Origin: a virus
Length of the DNA: 24,710 bases
IMG/VR virus record: IMGVR_UViG_3300040807_001652
Coordinates: 1 to 24,710 of that record
Strand: one strand, 5' to 3'
In this document: positions 2,645 to 19,590 of the stretch, one piece after another
Position numbering within the stretch: position 1 is the first letter of the stretch
Layout: each line of letters opens with the position of its first letter
Notes under the pieces: model-generated
Seen by the model: the letters and a program-made list of their open reading frames with translations, nothing else
What the model was told of the DNA's origin: nothing
The model's database searches: none
Translations under genes and position numbers: made by a program

Positions 2645-2722
2645 TTAACAACGACTGCGGCCATTAGCAAGGAGAGGACCAAGGGAAGTGGTGCTCCCCC
2701 TCTCCAAGGTGGATGGCGACAC

Positions 2723-2762
2723 GGGGAAGAAGACCACCTAATCGGTAGTCTCTTCCCCCTTT
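2723..2762 (+). terminator. Terminator-like hairpin after terL
   Basis: GGGGAAG (2723-2729) pairs with CTTCCCC (2752-2758), and the inner AGAC/GTCT extends the stem after a one-base bulge, giving 11 bp. A short T-tract (2760-2762) follows. The position 80 nt after the terL stop fits the end of the late transcript. The T-tract is short, so efficiency is uncertain. Confidence 0.5.
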
Positions 2763-2773
2763 AAGCCGCCTAA

Positions 2774-2875
2774 GGGGGGGACTATAGGGGGGGATTAAAG
2801 ACCGTATAAGCCGGTGATGGGGGGAATAAGAGGGGGATTAGACAGGAATATGGAATAGACGGGGATAAAGGGGGG
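2774..2875 (+). repeat. Degenerate G-run repeat array
   Basis: Six runs of 4-7 G occur within about 100 nt, at 2774-2780, 2787-2793, 2819-2824, 2832-2836, 2861-2864 and 2870-2875. Several are followed by an A/T-rich word of the type ATTAAAG, AATAAGA, ATTAGAC or ATAAAG, so this is a degenerate repeat, roughly GGGGG-RATWARA. T7 has arrays of short imperfect CCTAAAG repeats next to its terminal repeat; a similar role in packaging or end processing is an inference. The G runs could also form a quadruplex. Confidence 0.6.
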
Positions 2876-2900
2876 AGTATATCCATCACATCTTTATAGC

Positions 2901-2929
2901 TGACGTATGACTGATGATAGATGACGTAT
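2901..2929 (+). repeat. Two TGACGTAT direct repeats, 21 bp apart
   Basis: TGACGTAT occurs at 2901-2908 and again at 2922-2929, a period of 21 bp or two helical turns, in an A/T-rich segment within otherwise G-rich DNA. The spacing suits binding of a dimeric protein on one face of the DNA. No function is known. Confidence 0.4.
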
Positions 2930-2984
2930 CCGATTAGATGGAATTCTAACGTTAAAGCGGACACGTCCTACTACTGAGAGTATT

Positions 2985-3012
2985 TTGTCAGAAAAATGTG
3001 AACCCGTATACG
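2985..3012 (+). promoter_or_regulatory. Weak sigma70-like promoter candidate
   Basis: TTGTCA (2985-2990), a 16-nt spacer and TATACG (3007-3012) match the bacterial -35 and -10 boxes at 5/6 and 4/6 positions. It lies in the A/T-rich part of the genome-end region. T7 has several tandem early host promoters, so a second, weaker one here is plausible but unproven. Confidence 0.3.
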
Positions 3013-3125
3013 ATAAGGTAGGGGCCAAAATCCCCCCTTAGCCCCCCCTTGAAACCCATTGCAACGGGGTAGGGGGCCTGTGATGGTGAAAGCGGGCGCT
3101 AGCTCGCACCCTATGCGCTATATGT

Positions 3126-3181
3126 GGGGTCAAAGGGGGCATCAAGGGGCCTAAAGGGGCTAGATGCGGGGTCAAAGGGGG
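3126..3181 (+). repeat. GGGGTCAAAGGGGG direct repeats
   Basis: The 14-mer GGGGTCAAAGGGGG is present at 3126-3139 and 3168-3181, with related words ATCAAGGGGCC and CTAAAGGGGC between. A near-inverted version (CCCCTTTGAACC) occurs at about 3223-3234. This belongs to the same family of G-rich words that fills the presumed genome-end region. Confidence 0.55.
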
Positions 3182-3267
3182 TTGACTTATGCCCCTAAGT
3201 GCGCGCATCTGTTCGCTTTGATCCCCTTTGAACCCTCATCAACCCGCTACATCGCTCTACAAGGCCA

Positions 3268-3370
3268 CTAGCGGGCGTTAGCACGCCCTACAAGGGGCTA
3301 CAAGGGGCTTCAAGCATTGATTGGGTGCAATGACACCAACGACCAGCTAGGGCGTGCTAGCGCCCGCTAG
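3268..3370 (+). repeat. 23-bp inverted repeat with 57-nt loop
   Basis: Positions 3268-3290 and 3348-3370 are inverted copies of each other over 23 bp with one T/C difference, which in RNA would still pair as G-U. The arms contain GCGGGCG and CACGCCC blocks. The loop (3291-3347) holds two tandem copies of CAAGGGGCT[A/T]. A third, diverged copy of the arm lies at 3091-3113. Such a long stem may mark a genome-end cleavage or hairpin site, or a processing site; this is inference. Confidence 0.65.
3291..3310 (+). repeat. Tandem 10-mer CAAGGGGCT[A/T] x2
   Basis: CAAGGGGCTA and CAAGGGGCTT stand head to tail and are followed by a partial third unit (CAAG). A related tandem pair, AGGGGCTTAC x2, lies at 3371-3390 just outside the second arm of the inverted repeat. 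Confidence 0.55.
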
Positions 3371-3390
3371 AGGGGCTTACAGGGGCTTAC
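3371..3390 (+). repeat. Tandem 10-mer AGGGGCTTAC x2
   Basis: Two perfect head-to-tail copies are followed by ACAG, directly after the second arm of the 23-bp inverted repeat. The words are related to the CAAGGGGCTA pair within the loop of that repeat. Confidence 0.55.
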
Positions 3391-3678
3391 AGCGTGGACC
3401 ATGGATATAGAGCGTGCTCGATGCATTAGGTCATTCACCATCACCCTGCCCGCTTGAGCCCCCTTGAAGCCTCATATATCTATTGTTACAGGCCTCGTTA
3501 CAATGAATTTATCCAGTGATACCAATGGATTTGGGGTGGATATGGCACAACAGGTAGAAATACTCATGCCATCTCGGCTGGCTGGGGTCCATAATGTGGG
3601 TACGAGGCGAGGGGAAGGCGGCAACGCACCTCAAGCCTCACACCAAGAAGGAGCCGGCGAGAAGCCAGGCCAACCGAC

Positions 3679-3707
3679 TTGACAAACGCCACGATCCGGG
3701 GCATAAT
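3679..3707 (+). promoter_or_regulatory. Strong sigma70-type early promoter
   Basis: A perfect -35 box TTGACA (3679-3684), an optimal 17-nt spacer and a -10 box CATAAT (3702-3707, 5/6) form the best bacterial promoter I could find in the window. Transcription would begin near 3714 and run into the early gene cassette. The position just left of the first genes matches the host-RNAP promoters of T7-like phages, which must fire before the phage polymerase is made. Confidence 0.7.
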
Positions 3708-3772
3708 CGGACCAAGGCCACCGGGAAGGCCTTCCAAAGTTCCCACCAGCACCTAGACAACCGAATCACGGA

Positions 3773-3889
3773 TCTCCCAGGCAATAAGGCCAGGGCTTCC
3801 CCGAGAACTCTCCCACGCACTCCGGCTCACCAAGGCAGGCACGGGCAAAGGGATCGAGCGGGGCACGACAGGCAATAAGCCCTGGGAGA
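3773..3889 (+). repeat. Direct and inverted repeats in the early leader
   Basis: CAGGCAATAAG occurs at 3778-3788 and 3869-3879. Overlapping these, TCTCCCAGG (3773-3781) is the inverse complement of CCTGGGAGA (3881-3889), so the leader RNA could fold with the two direct repeats near its ends. With no gene here, the stretch 3710-3953 looks like a structured untranslated leader or a small RNA. Confidence 0.45.
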
Positions 3890-3905
3890 CACCGAGTTCC
3901 GCAGA

Positions 3906-3953
3906 GCACCAAGACAAGGCGAGAAGCCGAGAGATCGAATCACTCCTTGGTGC
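3906..3953 (+). ncRNA. tRNA-like fold in the early leader (speculative)
   Basis: GCACCAAG (3906-3913) pairs perfectly with CTTGGTGC (3946-3953), like an acceptor stem. Inside it are a small hairpin GGC-GAGAA-GCC (3918-3928) and a T-arm-like element, GAGAG-ATCGAAT-CACTC (3929-3945), abutting the 3' strand; its loop ATCGAAT resembles the TTCRANY consensus and the stem has one mismatch. D and anticodon arms are absent and no CCA directly follows, so it is not an ordinary tRNA. It may be a tRNA-like processing or regulatory element, or chance. Confidence 0.3.
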
Positions 3954-3977
3954 ATTGCCAGCCAATGAGGCTGGCTC
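3954..3977 (+). repeat. Leader hairpin repeat, copy 1
   Basis: A 24-nt element containing the 7-bp stem GCCAGCC/GGCTGGC with a 5-nt loop, 10 nt before the ATG at 3988. A second copy with 23/24 identity is at 4597-4620, also just upstream of a gene. A role in RNA processing (T7 early mRNA is cut by RNase III at intergenic stems) or in translation control is an inference. Confidence 0.65.
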
Positions 3978-3987
3978 ACCTAGTACA

Positions 3988-4146
3988 ATGCTTCTTCAAG
4001 CTGCTGCTGGCTCACGTAAGCTGGCTAACCACACCGACCCACGGACACAAGGCGGTGACAGGGCTGAGGCTTTCCGCTTTGACCCTGCTGCAGATCCACG
4101 GTTCGTGGCATTCATGGCTAAAGTTCACCATCATCACGAGGCTTGA
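3988..4146 (+). CDS. Small early protein, unknown
   Basis: This frame encodes 52 residues with no recognised family. It starts MLLQAAAG, has a polar middle and the hydrophobic/aromatic segment PRFVAFMAKV near the end, and finishes with four histidines. The histidines come from the recurrent leader word TTCACCATCATCAC, which here doubles as the upstream region of the next gene. I chose the ATG at 3988 because it follows the hairpin repeat, as the ATG at 4632 follows the other copy; an in-frame start at 3955 would run through the hairpin. It is the first candidate gene after the early promoter. Coding status is likely but not certain. Confidence 0.5.
   Translation: MLLQAAAGSRKLANHTDPRTQGGDRAEAFRFDPAADPRFVAFMAKVHHHHEA
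4124..4140 (+). promoter_or_regulatory. TTCACCATCA leader motif
   Basis: TTCACCATCATCACGAG lies 27 nt upstream of the ATG at 4151 and shares TTCACCATCA plus CACGAGG with the copy at 5546. The GAGG at its end could pair weakly with 16S rRNA. Confidence 0.45.
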
Positions 4147-4150
4147 TCTC

Positions 4151-4309
4151 ATGCAATCGATGACATCCGTTAAGTGCTCTGGCAAGACTGCTCGCAAGGG
4201 CAGGATCTACCATCAGCTCAAGGGCAAAAAAGTTGACCGGCCTATTGACTGGTCAGCCAAGCCACCAAAGGCTAAGGCTCTTGAAATCGTCACTCTCATT
4301 AAGGCCTGA
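4151..4309 (+). CDS. Small basic early protein, unknown
   Basis: A 52-residue, strongly basic frame (Lys/Arg-rich, including KGRIYHQLKGKK) with one tryptophan and a short hydrophobic C-terminal helix (LEIVTLIKA). I do not recognise it. Its charge would suit nucleic-acid or RNA-polymerase binding, but nothing specific shows this. A second in-frame ATG is at 4160. It starts 5 nt after the previous stop and ends 3 nt before the next ATG, so it fits a tight operon. Small basic early proteins of podoviruses often modify host functions; that is an inference. Confidence 0.55.
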   Translation: MQSMTSVKCSGKTARKGRIYHQLKGKKVDRPIDWSAKPPKAKALEIVTLIKA

Positions 4310-4312
4310 ACC

Positions 4313-4555
4313 ATGACCACACGCACATGCCCAACGCTTGGCTATCTCTTCCCAGCTGCTCGTGATGAGGACTGGGATGCACAGATCGATGACATCATCT
4401 ACGAACTCGCTGAGATGGAGGCTGCTCCTAACTCTGAGGAATGGGCCGATGCCATCGAGGGTTATCGCTGCATGACCGATGCTGAGATAGCTCAGATCTA
4501 CGTCGATAGATCTCAAGCAGTCTATGAGCCCATCGACTATGATGAGGCCTGGTGA
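4313..4555 (+). CDS. Small acidic early protein, unknown
   Basis: 80 residues, very acidic, with many Asp/Glu spread throughout (DEDWDAQIDDIIYELAEME) and an acidic C-terminus ending DEAW. There is no signal peptide, membrane segment or known motif. The charge distribution is like that of DNA-mimic inhibitor proteins used by phages against host nucleases or transcription, but this is only a resemblance in composition. It follows the basic 52-residue gene by 3 nt, which raises the question whether the two products bind each other. Confidence 0.7.
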   Translation: MTTRTCPTLGYLFPAARDEDWDAQIDDIIYELAEMEAAPNSEEWADAIEGYRCMTDAEIAQIYVDRSQAVYEPIDYDEAW

Positions 4556-4570
4556 TCCGTTAAAGCGGGA

Positions 4571-4591
4571 GGACAGGTGCAATCCCTGTCC
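4571..4591 (+). other. Hairpin with 7-nt T-loop-like loop, followed by CACCA
   Basis: GGACAGG pairs perfectly with CCTGTCC around the loop TGCAATC, and the next bases are CACCA. It resembles the 3' minihelix of a tRNA, but no 5' acceptor strand, D arm or anticodon arm can be built upstream. It directly precedes the second leader hairpin repeat. Confidence 0.4.
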
Positions 4592-4596
4592 CACCA

Positions 4597-4620
4597 ATTG
4601 CCAGCCACTGAGGCTGGCTC
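4597..4620 (+). repeat. Leader hairpin repeat, copy 2
   Basis: It is 23/24 identical to 3954-3977, with the same 7-bp GCCAGCC/GGCTGGC stem and the only change in the loop. It lies 11 nt upstream of the ATG at 4632, nearly the same distance as copy 1 from its gene. Confidence 0.65.
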
Positions 4621-4631
4621 CTTTAAGCACC

Positions 4632-4880
4632 ATGAACACCACCACCAAAGCTGCCTTCCGTACCGTTGCTGAGGCTGATGTCTTTGCAGCTGACAAGGCT
4701 CCCGCCAAGGTAGTCCGTCCCTACTACCTCGCTGATATGGATCACGCCGCTAGCATGGCCCGTGGCTGGGCAGTGCTTGCAGACTGTGGTCGCCCCGGCG
4801 CTGCTGAGCGCTTCAACGAGTGCATTCACACGGCCATGGGCTGGCGCCCTGAGCACACAGCTGATGAGCTCACCTTCTGA
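4632..4880 (+). CDS. Small early protein, unknown
   Basis: An 82-residue protein of unknown family. The N-terminus MNTTTKAAFRTVAEADVF is followed by an Ala-rich segment, KVVRPYYLADMDHAASMARGW, and a C-terminal part with two cysteines (LADCGRP and FNECIH). It has no signal peptide or membrane segment. I chose the ATG at 4632 because it follows the hairpin repeat; a longer frame from 4524 would overlap the previous gene and run through both hairpins. A pair of stable hairpins follows its stop codon, possibly an attenuator between this gene and the next. Confidence 0.65.
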   Translation: MNTTTKAAFRTVAEADVFAADKAPAKVVRPYYLADMDHAASMARGWAVLADCGRPGAAERFNECIHTAMGWRPEHTADELTF

Positions 4881-4890
4881 TCATCCTACT

Positions 4891-4927
4891 GAGGCCTTCG
4901 GGCCTCTCTAGGGTGTTCTCGCACCCT
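4891..4927 (+). terminator. Two consecutive hairpins, one with a TTCG tetraloop
   Basis: GAGGCC-TTCG-GGCCTC (4891-4906) is a very stable C(UUCG)G hairpin, and AGGGTG-TTCTCG-CACCCT (4910-4927) follows after 3 nt. There is no T-tract, so RNA processing or attenuation is more likely than full termination. The second hairpin is followed by ACCAATT, the same word that follows the hairpin at 4571. Confidence 0.45.
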
Positions 4928-4932
4928 ACCAA

Positions 4933-4942
4933 TTCACCATCA
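4933..4942 (+). promoter_or_regulatory. TTCACCATCA leader motif
   Basis: An exact copy of the word, followed by TCATTC, ends 11 nt before the ATG at 4954. No Shine-Dalgarno sequence is present upstream of this gene. Confidence 0.45.
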
Positions 4943-4953
4943 TCATTCAACCA

Positions 4954-5211
4954 ATGGACTTCGAACAACGTCTTGAGCGCTACGTGCGCATCTTTGTCAA
5001 GGTTTGTGTAGCCGTATATGTTGCGGGCTACACGCTTGGATCATTTGTCCACAAGGCCAACAATCAGCTGACTGCCCTTGTACGCCTTCCTAGGCGCTCT
5101 AAGGTACAGAAGGCCCAACGCCTAGCTAAGCAAGCCTTACAGGCCCTTCTAGACGCCGCTGAGCGCCTTCTAGCTCAGGCTGATCAGTACCTATCAACCC
5201 TTGAGGCCTAA
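4954..5211 (+). CDS. Small single-pass membrane protein, unknown
   Basis: 85 residues. Residues about 11-32 form one hydrophobic segment (VRIFVKVCVAVYVAGYTLG), followed by a basic linker (RLPRRSKVQKAQRLAKQA) and a heptad-like Leu/Ala-rich helix to the C-terminus. This suggests one membrane anchor with a cytoplasmic coiled-coil tail. I do not recognise a family. It overlaps no neighbour and is followed after 3 nt by the next gene. Early phage membrane proteins can act in superinfection exclusion or membrane takeover; nothing in the sequence proves either. Confidence 0.7.
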   Translation: MDFEQRLERYVRIFVKVCVAVYVAGYTLGSFVHKANNQLTALVRLPRRSKVQKAQRLAKQALQALLDAAERLLAQADQYLSTLEA

Positions 5212-5214
5212 CTG

Positions 5215-5394
5215 ATGCCCATGCACTACACCGTCATCTATAAGGATGAGCGCAACCAGCGCCGTCACTTCTGTTGCTATGCGACTGGCGTCTATGAGGC
5301 GCGGATCGCAGCAATGGAGCTCAACGCTCACATCCACCAGCACCCCAACTCCATTACCCACATCATCACGAACAACAATGACGACTGGCAGTAA
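5215..5394 (+). CDS. Small early protein, His-rich C-terminus, unknown
   Basis: A 59-residue frame beginning MPMHYTVIYKDERNQRRH. The pattern of a short beta-strand (YTVIYKD), a turn and second strand (HFCCYATG), then a helix (YEARIAAMELNAHIHQH) looks like a compact alpha/beta fold. The C-terminus is NNNDDWQ. It begins 3 nt after the previous stop and overlaps the next gene by 17 nt. The reading frame uses the G/C-ending codons of its neighbours, which supports that it is coding. The family is unknown; the ATG at 5221 is an alternative start. Confidence 0.6.
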   Translation: MPMHYTVIYKDERNQRRHFCCYATGVYEARIAAMELNAHIHQHPNSITHIITNNNDDWQ

Positions 5395-5545
5395 CCGACA
5401 CCCACATCCCAACTCAACTCTGGTTGAGCGCATCTTGTTCTACAGTGAGCATGACATGCTCGCTCAGGCTCGAGCCCTAGCTGCCCTTGGAGATTACCTC
5501 GAAGAGTGTGCAGCATGGGAGCTCGAGATCGAAGACATCTTCTGA
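5378..5545 (+). CDS. Small acidic early protein, unknown
   Basis: 55 residues: a polar N-terminus (MTTGSNRHPHPN) followed by one long, acidic amphipathic helix (LVERILFYSEHDMLAQARAL through ELEIEDIF). No motif is recognised. The ATG at 5378 overlaps the end of the preceding gene by 17 nt, indicating translational coupling. An earlier in-frame start at 5246 would lie wholly inside the preceding gene and is less likely. The stop at 5545 touches the next TTCACCATCA leader motif. Confidence 0.55.
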   Translation: MTTGSNRHPHPNSTLVERILFYSEHDMLAQARALAALGDYLEECAAWELEIEDIF

Positions 5546-5561
5546 TTCACCATCACACGAG
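5546..5561 (+). promoter_or_regulatory. TTCACCATCA leader motif
   Basis: TTCACCATCACACGAG starts 25 nt upstream of the ATG at 5571, almost the same word as at 4124-4140. The terminal GAGG may serve as a weak ribosome binding site. Confidence 0.45.
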
Positions 5562-5570
5562 GTACACACC

Positions 5571-5882
5571 ATGACCAACAAACTTGCACCACTTGCCCTG
5601 CCCCTTGGGGCCGCTCTATTGCTCGCTGGTCAGGCTATGGCTGCGCCTGTAGCTGCCCTTAAGCAGTTAGGCAGGGAGGCAGCCCGCATCTACTGCAGCG
5701 ACACCGTACAAGCTGAGCTAGTGGGCGCTACGCCCTTTGCAAGGGGTCAAGTCGCCAGCTTTATCAGGGAGCAGCTCGGTGAGGAACTGGGCTATGAGCT
5801 TACAGCTGTTGAGAAAGGACGAGTGAGCGCACTTGTGCGTGACCTTACTCTCGGAGGCTATTGTGAGCCTGGCAGCATTTAA
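5571..5882 (+). CDS. Exported early protein with Sec signal peptide, unknown
   Basis: 103 residues. The N-terminus is a classical signal peptide: Lys4, a hydrophobic core over residues 5-20 and an AMA/AP cleavage site after Ala24. The mature part is helical and polar, with exactly two cysteines (C42 and C98) that could form a disulfide in the periplasm. I know no family. The ATG at 5571 follows the leader motif and gives the complete signal peptide. An exported product among early genes is unusual for a T7-like phage and suggests a role at the cell envelope, for instance blocking other phages or affecting host transport; this is inference. Confidence 0.75.
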   Translation: MTNKLAPLALPLGAALLLAGQAMAAPVAALKQLGREAARIYCSDTVQAELVGATPFARGQVASFIREQLGEELGYELTAVEKGRVSALVRDLTLGGYCEPGSI

Positions 5883-6204
5883 GGTTAGCTGGTCACCTAA
5901 ACTCTCTAAATTCAGAGTTCTGAGGCGTAAGCTACGGGTCTATACCCGCAACCTACATCCAGTTTTGAAGATTATTCTCGAGCATCTACTCGACGGCATC
6001 CTTAGGTTCTTTGAGGATCATTGGATAGACGCAAAGGTAGATGCTGAGATCAACAGAGCAGTTGCAAGCTGGCCTGAGGCTAAGGAGCCTCAACCAATCA
6101 TTCGGGAGCTTCCCTCTGAGGTTCCCGGTTTACCAACTTTCACAATCACGGCACCACACCATGACAGAACGACACAAGCGGGGCCAAGCACCCACCCCCA
6201 TTGA
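5863..6204 (+). CDS. Early protein with hydrophobic helix, unknown
   Basis: 113 residues starting at GTG 5863, chosen because a clear Shine-Dalgarno GGAGG (5852-5856) lies 6 nt upstream; it overlaps the exported-protein gene by 20 nt. The N-terminal third is very basic (KLSKFRVLRRKLRVYTRN), then follows an amphipathic to hydrophobic helix (VLKIILEHLLDGILRFF), an acidic stretch and a Pro/Thr-rich tail. This suggests a membrane-associated protein with a basic face. No known family is recognised. The end overlaps the next gene by 44 nt, so part of the tail is read in two frames. Confidence 0.6.
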   Translation: MSLAAFKVSWSPKLSKFRVLRRKLRVYTRNLHPVLKIILEHLLDGILRFFEDHWIDAKVDAEINRAVASWPEAKEPQPIIRELPSEVPGLPTFTITAPHHDRTTQAGPSTHPH

Positions 6205-6385
6205 GCAGTCTTACATAGAGATGTGTGAGCGCTGTGATGCCCTGGGAGCGCAGTTTGACGCAGCTAAGGCATGCGACGACAAAGAGCATGCTGCAAAGGT
6301 CTTTCTAGACCTCAAGAGCATCGCTACCGAATGGGGTATCGGCATACAGCTGGTTGAGGTGGACCCCGATGAGGATTCTCAATAA
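6161..6385 (+). CDS. Small early protein, unknown
   Basis: 74 residues, beginning MTERHKRGQAPTPIEQ, then a helical region with the pair C-x-x-C (MCERCDALG) and a third cysteine (AKACDD), ending with an acidic tail (VEVDPDEDSQ). The C-x-x-C might bind a metal, but only one further Cys and two His are available. The ATG at 6161 is preceded at 22 nt by TTCACAATCA, a 9/10 match to the leader motif, and no Shine-Dalgarno is seen. The family is not recognised. Confidence 0.65.
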   Translation: MTERHKRGQAPTPIEQSYIEMCERCDALGAQFDAAKACDDKEHAAKVFLDLKSIATEWGIGIQLVEVDPDEDSQ

Positions 6386-6522
6386 CCAGCCCTTATTGAG
6401 ATACAGGCCATTAACAGCCCAAGGGGAGACAACCCTGAGGCCCCTTCCATTAGACCGGAGGTGACCGATGGAATAGAGACCACAGCATCACCACCTCTGC
6501 TTCAAACCCGCTTTAACCCATC

Positions 6523-6570
6523 ATGAAACCACATCCACACCGCGCCCTGGAGGCCCTGCCCGATGACTGA
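6523..6570 (+). CDS. Possible 15-residue leader peptide
   Basis: A tiny frame (MKPHPHRALEALPDD) begins at ATG 6523 and its stop overlaps the ATG of the next gene at 6563. It could couple translation to the downstream gene. The upstream 130 nt (6386-6520) hold only short inverted repeats such as AAGGGG/CCCCTT. Such short frames also arise by chance, so support is weak. Confidence 0.2.
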   Translation: MKPHPHRALEALPDD

Positions 6571-6772
6571 CCTCTCCCCCGCCGCGAAGGCGGTGCTTGA
6601 TGCTGCCAATGGTGCTCAATCCTATGGCCCAGATGATTGTCTCAACGAATCTCGCTGGGTTGCTGCTGCCGCCCTGCGAGCTGCTGCAGATCAACTGAAA
6701 TACAAGCTCCTTGATGTGGAGGTTGTCGATTGTTCACAACTGCTTTTGCTCGCTGATGAGCTTGAAGCCTAG
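6563..6772 (+). CDS. Small conserved-looking phage protein, unknown
   Basis: 69 residues rich in Ala and Leu: MTDLSPAAKAVLDAANG, then AAAALRAAADQLKYK and a C-terminal LLLLADELEA. This pattern recalls short hypothetical proteins common in cyanobacterial and cyanophage genomes; I cannot name a function. A GGAGG (6549-6553) lies 9 nt upstream of the ATG, one of the clearer ribosome binding sites in the early region. All-helical and soluble. Confidence 0.7.
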   Translation: MTDLSPAAKAVLDAANGAQSYGPDDCLNESRWVAAAALRAAADQLKYKLLDVEVVDCSQLLLLADELEA

Positions 6773-6788
6773 TAGTCAGACCCACTTA

Positions 6789-6798
6789 ATCACCATCA
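6789..6798 (+). promoter_or_regulatory. Leader motif variant ATCACCATCA
   Basis: A 9/10 match to TTCACCATCA, ending 6 nt before the ATG at 6805. It is the last copy before the polymerase gene. Confidence 0.4.
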
Positions 6799-6804
6799 CA
6801 CGCC

Positions 6805-6951
6805 ATGATCATTCTCGATGACCAATGCTACGTAGACACTGAGGGATACATCATCTCACTGTCTCAAGAGGCCGCTGAACAGCTCACAGATGAGGAATAC
6901 AGCCTCTATCTCGCTGGTCAGCTTGAGTACACCCTATCGGAGATCGTATGA
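6805..6951 (+). CDS. Small acidic protein coupled to RNA polymerase
   Basis: 48 residues, acidic (MIILDDQCYVDTEGYIISLS, then helix QEAAEQLTDEEYSLYLAGQL). Two short beta-strands and a helix are likely. Its stop TGA overlaps the polymerase start (ATGA at 6948-6951), so the two are translationally coupled, and its last codons carry the polymerase's Shine-Dalgarno (GGAG). No family is recognised. The tight coupling makes a link to polymerase production or activity possible but unproven. Confidence 0.65.
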   Translation: MIILDDQCYVDTEGYIISLSQEAAEQLTDEEYSLYLAGQLEYTLSEIV

Positions 6952-9323
6952 GTGATGAGTCTTTAGCTGCTGTAAGCCGGCAGCTCGCACTCGAGACACG
7001 CTCACACAATGAGGCGGTAGAGCGCCTTCTAAGCCGCACTAACAAGGCTGAGGATAAGGGTAGGGGCTCACAGACCCTTACCGGTTCAAAGCTGATCAAA
7101 GCCGCCGTAGAGGCCTGTGCAAGTACCTTTCAAGCCAACATCAACCACACTCTCAGGGGTGTGGCTGGTCGTGATATGGCCCTTGTGGCTAACACCGTTG
7201 GCAAGATGGACCCCGAGATTCTGGTCGTTATCACCCTTAAGGTGGTGATGGACTCAGTGCTCCTTAAGGACAGGCCGAACAAGAAACAGGTCGTAGATAA
7301 CGAGATAAAGAGTGTCACTAGCAAGATTGGTGCAGCAATACACCATGAGGCTAGGCTCTCATCATATCGAGAGCAGGCACCAAAGCTCTACGACCACATA
7401 GAGCGAAGCTGGAATGAGCACGGACATAAGTCCGTTGCTTATCGTGTCACAGGTATGGCCCGCTCTATGAACAAACAAGGCATAGAGTGGAAGGCTTGGA
7501 GTCCCTTACAGACCAACAAGATAGGGGCTAAAATGCTGAACTGGGTCGCTGAGGCTACTGGAAACCAGTGGTTCACAATAGAGACCCACATGATCGGCAA
7601 GAACAAGAAGGTCACCACTATCTACCCCACGAGGGAGCTGTTAGGCATACGGGATTCAATTATGAATGCTGCATGCAACATGGCCTACCTATCGTGGCCA
7701 ATGCTTTGTAAGCCAGTCCCTTGGTCATCAGAGCAACATGGTGGGTACCTTACTGCTGACGCTAGATCCCATACCCTTGTGCGAGGCCATAAAGGCACGC
7801 CACAGGCTCAGAACGAGCTTCCCCTTGAGATGCTCAACAACCTACAGACCGTGGCATACAGGCTCAACAGGCCTGTCCTTGATGCGGCTCAGTACTGCTA
7901 CGACCACTGGATGGAGGTTGGCTGCTTCCATCGTAAGGCCGCAACTGTTGTTGAGTCTTGGCTATCTGAGGATGCCACCAAGGAAGAGATCAGGGATTAT
8001 CGTCGCTACCGTAAGGCAGTTGAAGATGAGAACTGTAAGCTCACAGCCAAGAACTGGCAGACCACTGAGGCTATGTACGTAGCCAACATCTTTAAGGATG
8101 AGCCAGAGTTCTACTTACCGTGGAACTTTGACTATCGTGGCCGTGTCTACAGCATATGCACCTCTCTTCAGCCACAGGGTACAGACTTCCAAAAGAGCCT
8201 GTTCTACTTTGCTGAGGAAGGCCCCATAAACGCCGATTGGCTGTACTGGCACGCCGGCACCACTTGGGGTCTAGACAAGAAGACACATGCTGATCGCATC
8301 GCTTGGGCTAAGGAACAGCACGAGATGTTCACCATCATAGCTGCTGACCCCGTGGAAGCTCTCCCTATCTGGTCAAAAGCTGATGAGCCTTGGATGTTCT
8401 TGGCTGCTGCCATTGAGATCCACGACTGCCTGATCGCCAAGACTAAGGCCACCTCTGGCCTACCCATTGGCGTAGATGCCACATGCTCTGGTCTGCAGCA
8501 TCTCTCAGCCTTAACGCTGAATAGAGATGCAGCCTATCAAGTTAATGTGGTGCCCACCCCTGTGCCTTCTGATGGCTACAGGACCGTGGCAGAACGGGCT
8601 AGAAAGTTCCTACCCAAGCATGTAGGAGATTGGATCGATCGTAAGGTCACCAAGCGGACAGTGATGACGCTACCCTATGGCGTCACTAAGGAGTCAGCTA
8701 GGCACTACATCTACATGGCTCTACAAGAGCAGGGTAGGACAGATGAGGAGCTGAAGCCCTATGAGACTGAGATCGTGAACGCGATCTTCTGTAAGGCAGT
8801 GCCTGAGGTGTTCCCTGGCCCTATTTCCGTTATGTCTTGGCTGCAGAAGTCAGCTAGAGATCTAATCAGGAATGGGAACAAGGAGATCAGCTGGGTCACT
8901 CCCTCTGGCTTTATCGTTCACCAGATCCACCACAAGTGGAACTGCGATATCGTTAAGACCAGAATCATGGGCTCAGTCAGAAAGATGAGCATAGCTAGAG
9001 ATGAAGAGAATCACACGCCAGACTCTGGCAGGCATTCCTCTTCTATCAGCCCTAACCTCATCCACTCTCTAGATGCATCACTGCTGCATTTCATGTTCAG
9101 CGAATGGGATAAGCCTTTTACCTGCATTCATGACTGCATCCTTGGCCGCTCTTGCGACATGGATGACATGCAGCAGGGCATCAGGCTGCACTTTGCTGAG
9201 ATGTACAAAGGAGACCCACTTAAGGATTGGGCCAAACAGCTAGGCCTTAAGGTTCCTGATGACATGATCATCGGAGACCTAGACCTAGATCAAGTCAACC
9301 ATTCCCACTACTTCTTCTGCTGA
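6948..9323 (+). CDS. T7-type single-subunit RNA polymerase
   Basis: DNA-directed RNA polymerase that transcribes the middle and late phage genes from phage promoters. At 791 residues it is shorter than T7 gp1 (883), as usual for cyanopodoviruses. Motifs: WNFDYRGRVYS (T7 MDWRGRVYA region); motif A GVDATCSGLQH with catalytic D510; O-helix KRTVMTLPYG with K569 and Y577; IHSLDASLLH; motif C CIHDC with H728/D729; and an aromatic C-terminus HYFFC, similar to the T7 foot FAFA. GGAG lies 5 nt upstream of the ATG. It ends the early cassette and precedes the replication genes. Its promoter sequence cannot be deduced with confidence here. Confidence 0.97.
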   Translation: MSDESLAAVSRQLALETRSHNEAVERLLSRTNKAEDKGRGSQTLTGSKLIKAAVEACASTFQANINHTLRGVAGRDMALVANTVGKMDPEILVVITLKVVMDSVLLKDRPNKKQVVDNEIKSVTSKIGAAIHHEARLSSYREQAPKLYDHIERSWNEHGHKSVAYRVTGMARSMNKQGIEWKAWSPLQTNKIGAKMLNWVAEATGNQWFTIETHMIGKNKKVTTIYPTRELLGIRDSIMNAACNMAYLSWPMLCKPVPWSSEQHGGYLTADARSHTLVRGHKGTPQAQNELPLEMLNNLQTVAYRLNRPVLDAAQYCYDHWMEVGCFHRKAATVVESWLSEDATKEEIRDYRRYRKAVEDENCKLTAKNWQTTEAMYVANIFKDEPEFYLPWNFDYRGRVYSICTSLQPQGTDFQKSLFYFAEEGPINADWLYWHAGTTWGLDKKTHADRIAWAKEQHEMFTIIAADPVEALPIWSKADEPWMFLAAAIEIHDCLIAKTKATSGLPIGVDATCSGLQHLSALTLNRDAAYQVNVVPTPVPSDGYRTVAERARKFLPKHVGDWIDRKVTKRTVMTLPYGVTKESARHYIYMALQEQGRTDEELKPYETEIVNAIFCKAVPEVFPGPISVMSWLQKSARDLIRNGNKEISWVTPSGFIVHQIHHKWNCDIVKTRIMGSVRKMSIARDEENHTPDSGRHSSSISPNLIHSLDASLLHFMFSEWDKPFTCIHDCILGRSCDMDDMQQGIRLHFAEMYKGDPLKDWAKQLGLKVPDDMIIGDLDLDQVNHSHYFFC

Positions 9324-9324
9324 T

Positions 9325-9426
9325 GTGATCTTTATTCCTGACACCCACTACATGCTGATCCCGATCATCTTGGTCGGGTTCGGTTTGCCCACCATCATCA
9401 ACTACATCGCACACATCCACAAATGA
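9325..9426 (+). CDS. Small hydrophobic peptide between RNAP and SSB
   Basis: A 33-residue frame from GTG 9325 (24 residues from ATG 9352) encoding one hydrophobic segment, MLIPIILVGFGLPTIINYIA, followed by a short His/Lys tail. The stop TGA overlaps the SSB start (ATGA at 9423-9426), and the GTG is one base after the polymerase stop. The peptide fills the entire gap between the genes, which supports translation. It looks like a single-pass membrane peptide. A hairpin CCCGATC/GGTCGGG inside it (about 9359-9377) is an alternative reason for conservation. Confidence 0.5.
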   Translation: MIFIPDTHYMLIPIILVGFGLPTIINYIAHIHK

Positions 9427-10490: not shown

Positions 10491-12039
10491 GTTCGTACGT
10501 CACATCCCTTGTGACAATTGCGGTAGCTCAGACGCCAACAGTCTATACACTGATGGCCACACCTACTGTTTCTCATGTAACCATGTGACAAGCACAGAAG
10601 ACAGCGAGGCCCCATCTGAGGGCCTTGTTTTTTACTTTGGTGAGCATCGCGCATTGCGTGCTCGCAAGATCAGCGAAGAAGTCTGCCGTAAGTTCAACGT
10701 CAAGGTCGAGGGGCCTCACATAAGGTTCCCTTACACCGATGTAGCTGGCCGCGTTGTTGGCTACAAGGAGAAAGACCAAGAGAAGAACTTCAAGTGGCGG
10801 GGCAAGAACGCTGAGAAGCGCCTATTCGGCCAACAGCTCTTTGGTGGCGGCAAGAGAGTCGTAATCACTGAGGGCGAAATGGATGCGTTGTCTGTCTATC
10901 AGGCAATGCCCAAATGGCCAGTAGTCTCTATCTTCTCAGGAGCTAAGGGAGCCCGCAAGGATCTCGAGCATCAGCTAACTTGGCTGATGGGCTTTGAGGA
11001 GATCGTTCTTCTATTCGACGCTGATGAACCAGGACAAGCTGCAACACTTGAGTGCGCTCAATTATTCCCACCAGACAAGGTTAAGATCGCTAGCCTTGGA
11101 GGATACAAGGATGCATCAGAGGCGCTGCAAGCTGTTGACGGTGAGGCGATCAGACAAGCTATCTGGAACGCCCAGAGCTACACCCCTAAGTCAATCATAT
11201 CAGGAGCTGAGATCTATGATCTTCTCAGGGCTCCAATGGTTGGCAGGGACTGCTCTTGGCCTTGGACTGCTATCGATACCGTTACTGGTGGCATCAGGCT
11301 CAAGGAGCTTATCACCATCACAGCCGGTACCGGAGCTGGTAAGAGCACCCTTTGCGGGGAACTCGCCCAGCATCTTATCGCTCAAGGCTTTAAGGTCGGC
11401 TACATCGCATTAGAAGAGTCAGTACAACGTACTGGTCTCAGACTGATGACTGTTGTTGCCAACAAACCACTACACCTCGACAACACCCTAGATGAACGAG
11501 ACTTTAAGCGCGCTTTTGATCTCAGCGTTGGTTCTGGGAATTTGTATCTTCGAGACGGCTTTGGCTCTATCGATCCTGACGTGATCCTGAACGATATGCG
11601 CTACTTAGTTAAAGCTAAGGGCGTGCAGTTCTTGATCCTCGATCACCTCAGCATCTTATTGTCTGGTACCTACCATGATGATGAGCGCAAGATGATCGAT
11701 GTCACTATGACCAAGCTCCGCTCATTCGTAGAGGAGACTGGTGTTGGCTTGTTCCTTATTTCTCACCTTAGGAGGGGTCGAGATGATCGAGGCCATGAGG
11801 ATGGGGCTCAGATCTCTATGTCGCAGCTTCGAGGTTCACATTCAATCTCGCAGCTTTCAGATGTTGTCATCGGCCTGGAACGGGCTGTATCTACCGGAGC
11901 AGACTGTGCAAGACTCAGAGTACTCAAAAACCGTTTCAATGGAGCCACAGGAGATGCAGGAGAACTCATCTACAACAAACAAACAGGAAGAATGCAAGCT
12001 GCTGAGGTACTACCATCTATCGACACTACCGATTTCTAA
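10474..12039 (+). CDS. Primase-helicase (T7 gp4-like)
   Basis: Bifunctional replisome protein that makes RNA primers and unwinds DNA as a ring. The 521 residues contain, in order: a zinc-binding domain with C13, C16, C32, C35; a TOPRIM primase core with ITEGEMDALS (E133) and LLFDADEPGQ; and a RecA-like helicase with Walker A GTGAGKS (K290), Walker B LILDHLS, the switch region ISHLRRG and QLRGSHSISQLSD, which matches the T7 segment DLRGSGALRQLSD. The C-terminus SIDTTDF is acidic and ends in Phe, like the T7 tail that docks on the polymerase. GGAGG lies 6 nt upstream of the ATG. Confidence 0.97.
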   Translation: MSSDSEFVRHIPCDNCGSSDANSLYTDGHTYCFSCNHVTSTEDSEAPSEGLVFYFGEHRALRARKISEEVCRKFNVKVEGPHIRFPYTDVAGRVVGYKEKDQEKNFKWRGKNAEKRLFGQQLFGGGKRVVITEGEMDALSVYQAMPKWPVVSIFSGAKGARKDLEHQLTWLMGFEEIVLLFDADEPGQAATLECAQLFPPDKVKIASLGGYKDASEALQAVDGEAIRQAIWNAQSYTPKSIISGAEIYDLLRAPMVGRDCSWPWTAIDTVTGGIRLKELITITAGTGAGKSTLCGELAQHLIAQGFKVGYIALEESVQRTGLRLMTVVANKPLHLDNTLDERDFKRAFDLSVGSGNLYLRDGFGSIDPDVILNDMRYLVKAKGVQFLILDHLSILLSGTYHDDERKMIDVTMTKLRSFVEETGVGLFLISHLRRGRDDRGHEDGAQISMSQLRGSHSISQLSDVVIGLERAVSTGADCARLRVLKNRFNGATGDAGELIYNKQTGRMQAAEVLPSIDTTDF

Positions 12040-19106: not shown

Positions 19107-19590
19107 TGGTGGAGGTCCTTCGGGACCTTCTTCTTCTGACATGAAGAAGCAGGAGCAGGCTCAGAAGCGCTCCGAAAAGCAGATGAAGCGCCAGTACAAG
19201 CGCACCGAGAGGAAGGCTCAGAAACGTCACAACGAAATGGTGGCGCAGAATGAGCGTACATTCAAGGAAGGCCAGTACAACGCATTCCAACAATTCAAAC
19301 TATCACAATCGCAGCAGTCGCAGCAAGCGGCTATGCAGATGCAATCTCAGATGATGCAGTTTGCTGCTAGCCAGAAGATGGCACAGCAACAGATGGCAGC
19401 ACAGATGATGGAGAATCGTCGGCTAGCCAAGGAGTCTGAGATGGCAGCCCTGAAAGCTCAGGGACTTCAACCCACCGTGAATGAGAACGAAGCACGTCGT
19501 ATCAAACCACGGGACCGGAACCAGAACAGGTCGATGGGTACCGGACAACTAGTAGCTAAATCTAACCCAGGACTATCAATCGCAGGCTAA
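19099..19590 (+). CDS. Virion/tail assembly protein, T7 gp7.3-like
   Basis: 163 residues from ATG 19099 (GGAG 7 nt upstream), starting MCSGGGPSG. A long basic, Gln/Met-rich coiled coil follows (about residues 15-120, with SQSQQSQQAAMQMQSQMM), then a basic linker and the C-terminus SNPGLSIAG. The small size, composition, position before the portal and Gly-Leu-Ser-Ile tail resemble T7 gp7.3, a virion protein needed for adsorption and ejection. The next gene ends with a related motif. The family link is by eye and position, not by strong alignment. Confidence 0.65.
   Translation: MCSGGGPSGPSSSDMKKQEQAQKRSEKQMKRQYKRTERKAQKRHNEMVAQNERTFKEGQYNAFQQFKLSQSQQSQQAAMQMQSQMMQFAASQKMAQQQMAAQMMENRRLAKESEMAALKAQGLQPTVNENEARRIKPRDRNQNRSMGTGQLVAKSNPGLSIAG

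Follow-up and report, generated by a model that had tools for sequence, protein, structure and literature searches.

Several kinds of leader element that assist translation initiation have been described. ACA enhancers of Salmonella and other enteric bacteria (yifK, dppA) are CA-rich, loosely spaced and proposed to anchor the 30S ribosome, with S1 as the suggested contact (PMC3879156). C-rich ribosome binding sites were selected in vitro, work in a reconstituted system and are proposed to pair with 16S ribosomal RNA (rRNA); C-rich leaders have also been reported in some phages (PMC3310771). In cyanobacterial genes without a Shine-Dalgarno (SD) sequence, weak structure of the 5′ untranslated region compensates, and S1 dependence is cited for some messenger RNAs (mRNAs), while the cyanophages S-SSM6a/b mimic the SD usage of their host (PMC6847405). 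There is little agreement on how SD-less genes are recognized in cyanobacteria and in the phages that infect them. Here, we characterized TTCACCATCA, a G-free 10-mer (the word) that recurs before early genes in a virus record of 24,710 bases (IMGVR_UViG_3300040807_001652), the whole of which is referred to as the window.

We lean, by a modest degree, toward the view that the word is one phage's spelling of a clade-wide mRNA leader element that favors SD-independent ribosome entry. The element would read TCA[C/A]-N3-CA[C/T], with a longer form, suggested by an unbiased scan of gapped words, of about TCACTTCCACT followed by CCAA, and would lie anywhere from adjoining the start codon to ~30 nucleotides (nt) upstream. 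Within the mRNA, such a G-poor, single-stranded stretch of C, A, and T may serve as a landing place for the 30S ribosome, probably contacted through S1 or another reader of single-stranded RNA, and could thereby allow initiation at small, closely packed genes whose SD is weak or missing. We infer the action at the RNA level, the effect on translation and the type of reader from the recurrence of the element.

Occurrence of the word in the window and in related phages

The RNA polymerase encoded in the window best matches those of Synechococcus phages S-CBP42, S-CBP2, and Syn5, cyanophage SS120-1 and phage P60 (44-47% identity; 45-47% for the first three). Since the enzyme is nearest to those of T7-like cyanophages, we consider the window to derive from a T7-like cyanophage. 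Near-identical IMG/VR contigs (L007, L444, L445) match it at 99.9-100% across common parts. The relatives L008 and L009 are mostly ~85-96% identical across aligned pieces, with some pieces lower, and L446 is 72-76% identical across aligned pieces of the early region. A DNA search returned no phage match for the early region of the window, and none of 4227 Rfam families reached its gathering score.

Counting both strands and allowing ≤1 mismatch, the word occurs 11 times in the window vs. 1.84 expected (sd 1.32; 100 shuffles, maximum 5). The initial annotation had located exact copies at 3434, 4124, 4933, and 5546 and 9/10 copies at 6139 and 6789, and all were recovered. Its statement that five of these six precede a start codon by 16-27 nt was also borne out, the distances to the ATG, measured from where the word begins, being 27 (4124 to 4151), 21 (4933 to 4954), 25 (5546 to 5571), 22 (6139 to 6161), and 16 (6789 to 6805). 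It had counted a single further exact copy, inside the polymerase gene; that copy is present, and an exact minus-strand copy had been overlooked. The features are as follows:

3081..3090, minus strand: exact copy in non-coding DNA
3434..3443, plus strand: exact copy in non-coding DNA; no start codon in the 60 nt downstream (next ATG 3504); counterparts ATCACCATCAC in L008 and TCACAATCAC in L446
3679..3707, plus strand: sigma-70-like promoter TTGACA-17-CATAAT upstream of the early genes; 11/12 consensus match; block aligned and kept in L008
4124..4133, plus strand: exact copy within the 3′ end of the small open reading frame before it (ORF; peptide end VHHHHEA), 27 nt 5′ of ATG 4151; GAGG at 4138-4141; kept in L008 and L446
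4290..4299, plus strand: divergent member TCACTCTCAT upstream of ATG 4313; score 8.6
4933..4942, plus strand: exact copy, 21 nt 5′ of ATG 4954
5546..5555, plus strand: exact copy immediately after a stop codon, 25 nt 5′ of ATG 5571; GAGG at 5559-5562; kept in L008
6139..6148, plus strand: 9/10 copy TTCACAATCA that overlaps the ORF before it, 22 nt 5′ of ATG 6161
6789..6798, plus strand: 9/10 copy ATCACCATCA, 16 nt 5′ of ATG 6805; exact in L008, L009, and L144
6948..9323, plus strand: T7-like RNA polymerase gene, used for placing the phage
8328..8337, plus strand: exact copy within the RNA polymerase gene
9398..9407, plus strand: weak member TCAACTACAT upstream of the single-stranded DNA-binding gene at 9423; score 6.3

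Also overlooked were 9/10 copies at 11311 and 15142, both within ORFs, and at 19406 on the minus strand. The copy in the polymerase gene is probably a coding chance, and the exact minus-strand copy, which has no exact equivalent in L008, probably belongs to a repeat or is unconnected with the other copies. Of the five near-start copies, those at 4124 and 6139 fall within the 3′-terminal part of the ORF upstream. That most of these genes lack an SD, as had been claimed, holds for three of the five, in which GGAG, GAGG, and AGGA are absent between -16 and -4; the genes at 4151 and 5571 carry GAGG between word and ATG. The word itself was rejected as an SD site, being G-free, accompanied by a separate GAGG in those two leaders and, in its motif form, loosely spaced at 3-32 nt from the ATG.

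Related stretches were sampled as the best 80 of 215, the best 80 of 543 and the best 80 of 436, near-duplicates were removed (28 of 86 sequences), and gene starts in the relatives were predicted with a simple greedy ATG caller; an initial enrichment list was contaminated by conserved coding ends. Across 1204 dereplicated leaders from 57 relatives of the T7-like cyanophage kind, with the window excluded, the 10-mer (≤1 mismatch, spacing 8-20) was found in 16 leaders vs. 3 in an equal width farther upstream. It ranked first among 4200 permutations of the same letters, the other 4199 all falling below 16 (mean 1.37), so that the enrichment seen in the window extends to related phages. With annotated starts (≤2 mismatches, spacing ≤30), the word was present in 7/60 leaders of Syn5, 2/53 of S-CBP2, 3/54 of P60, and 0/56 of P-SSP7, and downstream control segments of these phages gave 2, 0, 1, and 2 matches, respectively. 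The genes that it precedes differ among Syn5, S-CBP2, and P60. The nine letters TCACCATCA occur in Syn5 six times within the 4.1 kb that precede the polymerase gene and as many times across the remaining 42 kb. In three host chromosomes, where starts were crude leftmost ATGs and which may not be those of the phage's true host, the word occurred in 0/355, 0/389, and 1/382 leaders, and 400 kb of each showed no N3 excess of the gapped word described below. Host mimicry was rejected on these two grounds.

The gapped motif TCAC-N3-CAC

The runner-up words TCACTTACAC, TCAATTCCAC, TCACTTCCAC, TCACTACCAC, and TCACTTGCAC all contain TCA[C/A]-N3-CAC. On the gene strand of intergenic DNA from the 57 relatives, TCAC-N3-CAC was counted 75 times, vs. 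14-26 for gaps of 0, 1, 2, and 4-9 and 9 for the reverse complement of the N3 form; for 46 of the 75 copies, a predicted ATG was no more than 30 nt away. The N3 preference is not due to codon periodicity, because the in-phase gaps 0, 6, and 9 yielded just 22, 26, and 17. Since the gapped form had been picked after inspecting this main set, it was tested on fresh loci, retrieved by terminase and primase queries and masked for DNA ≥85% identical to the old set. There, N3 gave 35 copies vs. 2-16 at other gaps, and 13 vs. 0-5 near starts; the gap preference was repeated and the strand contrast was weaker. The signal belongs to the clade of Syn5, P60, S-CBP2, and S-CBP42 (clade A), where TCAC-N3-CA[CT] reached 79 vs. 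14-30 at other gaps; the remaining relatives show little of it (20 vs. 9-19). The boundary of clade A was drawn by hand, and L205 and L210 (polymerases 41 and 40% identical) were joined to it after their matches were known; the all-locus counts (75 vs. 14-26) are independent of this boundary.

An expectation-maximization motif search from differing seeds in 622 clade A leaders converged on TCAnTnnCACT, with a log-likelihood of 191 vs. 28-37 in eight shuffled sets; the same method recovers AGGAGG in T7. At a score ≥6 the motif marked 150 of the 622 leaders in the forward orientation, 16 in the reverse and 60 after shuffling. When 163,840 gapped words were scanned without bias, TCAC-N3-CAC came 6th in the discovery set, with several of the words above it matching parts of one and the same extended motif. 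In the fresh set it came 15th, behind words that are mostly G or C runs or GTG-rich and resemble conserved coding. It is somewhat unlikely that composition alone, through selection for G-poor and unstructured leaders in which a few C/A/T words recur because the vocabulary is small and copying is local, produced this pattern, since N3 exceeded nine other gaps in the intergenic DNA of two sets, the word led its 4200 permutations and motif leaders numbered 150 vs. 60 in shuffles. Such an account would nevertheless fit the depletion of G in all phage leaders (from 0.25 to 0.15 at -25..-16), a folding difference that composition explains, the lack of the window's word in one ortholog, and the different A/C-rich motif, AACnACCACACC, that the search returned for leaders of clade B (P-SSP7, S-CBP4, and kin).

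The initial annotation had offered three readings of the word: an unstructured ribosome (S1) landing site, a regulator site, or a repeated leader that spread with the genes. The first is the best supported, in that the strand bias of the main set, the place before ATGs in strings of genes, the loose spacing, the lack of G and the low folding point to an mRNA element that eases loading of the 30S ribosome, with S1 as a conceivable contact. A signal in DNA, be it a phage or host regulator site, a promoter or a pause element, the latter two read from a single strand, appears decidedly improbable. A double-stranded operator in particular is disfavored by the non-palindromic form of the word and by the strand bias (75 vs. 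9 in the main set; less clear in the fresh set, 35 vs. 14), and copies lie within gene strings, directly before ATGs. What a DNA signal would explain is the 3434 copy, which lies upstream of the promoter at 3679 and lacks a start codon yet is kept in L008 and L446, and the short inverted repeats that directly follow the word in some relatives. A Syn5/T7-type RNA polymerase promoter was rejected, as the promoter known from Syn5 has another sequence, located at 4929 and 44797 of that genome, which is absent from the window with ≤3 mismatches. Pairing of a C-rich site with host 16S rRNA was likewise rejected at the level of the exact pattern in three host 16S genes: the complement GTGNNNGTGA was not found in the loci of RCC307 (L361) and SynAce01 (L363), and its single occurrence in the WH5701 locus (L366, at 2453) falls outside the 16S gene by the reported 16S coordinates.

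Setting and evolution of the leaders

The description of the marked genes as early fits the window, where 7/9 early leaders vs. 2/16 later ones score above 6, and does not extend to the clade. When clade leaders with ≥20 nt of intergenic space were compared, 108/321 exceeded the threshold, comprising 58/175 pre-polymerase, 36/82 post-polymerase and 14/57 late leaders (7 leaders without class). Early-gene specificity across the clade was rejected on these counts, and because gap-matched leaders show no early preference, the early bias of the window largely tracks where leaders have room.

Orthologous leaders keep, drop or respell the word amid changing flanks, which counts in favor of a leader element. 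The 4933 word has a counterpart in L446 that lies closer to the ATG, and the 6139 copy corresponds to TCACCATCAC in L143 and L446 and to TAACAATCAC in L008 and L144. The word is absent from the orthologs of 5571 in L143 and L446 and from those of 6805 in L142, L143, and L446. Two early genes of the window, at 4151-4309 and 6563-6772, have no equivalent in L008, which in turn carries one at 2403-2750 that is missing from the window; each adjoins a leader word, and L446 does carry the 4151 gene. Copies from the same genome tend to share the middle triplet (27/149 pairs vs. 12.0 expected, 0/5000 permutations; with the window left out, 21/128 vs. 9.2, 7/5000). These dialects may reflect a co-evolving reader, short-range copying, or both.

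Spread of a leader along with its genes, the third reading, is partly upheld inside this phage group, where the 4124 and 5546 leaders are alike beyond the word and homology between the window and L008 resumes at 6790, within the word. Across the clade it fares worse, since flanks are barely more alike within genomes (0.32) than between them (0.29). Taken as a complete explanation, namely that the word is a recombination linker or hitch-hiking leader that marks exchange boundaries of small early genes and is copied along with them, it seems highly doubtful: the resumed homology, the gene gains and losses adjoining copies and the shared middle triplets would be expected of it, but the word also occurs inside coding ends, and in many cases the gene that follows a copy is a conserved one such as ssb. 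A bolder proposal is that the clade has its own ribosome-entry code, a bipartite word in single-stranded RNA whose two CAC units begin six bases from each other and are recognized by an RNA-binding protein with two sites, encoded by host or phage, which privileges initiation on phage mRNAs, with each phage's dialect of the middle triplet co-evolving with the reader. We regard this as unlikely.

Several observations weigh against a leader element that promotes ribosome entry. The 3434 copy is conserved in L008 and L446 without a nearby start codon, and the exact word before the 4954 gene is lost in L008. In the fresh loci, the reverse complement of the N3 form was counted 14 times, equal to the highest count among its other gaps (0-14), and composition alone predicts about 60 of the 150 motif leaders. 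Predicted folding of motif leaders is weak (-2.8 vs. -6.1 kcal/mol) and is wholly accounted for by composition (-2.6 after shuffling). Finally, SD words are equally rare with the motif (10/108) and without it (20/213). As SD words are not depleted in motif leaders, the motif is not visibly replacing the SD, and a role as SD replacement was rejected for want of this trade-off.

Other features were noted around these leaders. In L134, L147, and L148, short inverted repeats, e.g., TTACAccgcTGTAA or TTGCAcggcTGCAA, follow some leader words. A hairpin-like sequence, ATTGCCAGCCANTGAGGCTGGCTC, is repeated at 3954-3977 and 4597-4620 of the window, directly before start codons, and similar hairpins occur in L008 and L446. 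The promoter search that gave the 3679 site yielded 4 sites vs. 3.0 in shuffles. To the right of the terminase gene, the non-coding DNA at 2645-3480 is dense in runs of GGGG and CCCC and contains an inverted repeat of 26 nt (3265-3290/3348-3373); the run array looks clade-wide, because G- and C-run words also lead the scan of fresh relatives. TTAAAGCGGACACG is present in tandem copies near the terminase in L449 (4641 to end) and once in the window, at about 2953.

Comparison with known leader elements

At the level of titles and the beginnings of abstracts, the literature yielded no report of the word or of a cyanophage leader motif, and texts containing the 10-mer, among the matches listed, look unrelated by title. 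As far as these searches show, the lineage-specific gapped form is new, and the kind of element is already known. Being short, countable and different from phage to phage, the leader word permits a direct mutational test; it may also help to correct start-codon calls in cyanophages and is a possible expression part for cyanobacteria.

A close parallel lies in the ACA and CA-rich enhancers, which the word resembles in being C/A-rich, 5′ of the start and free of strict spacing (PMC3879156). Unlike them, it has the gapped form TCAC-N3-CAC, is lineage-specific, recurs through phage genomes mostly without an SD and is known here from its sequence; moreover, its core reads CAC...CAC, with an ACA triplet beside some copies only. 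With the C-rich ribosome binding sites (PMC3310771) it shares a non-SD, C-rich character and the lack of a strict position, but its exact complement was not found in the three host 16S genes. The Syn5 RNA polymerase promoter (PMC3950665) is likewise a short recurrent word of the same phage clade, with another sequence and in other places. Where S-SSM6a/b follow the SD usage of their host (PMC6847405), this T7-like clade has a recurrent non-SD word instead.

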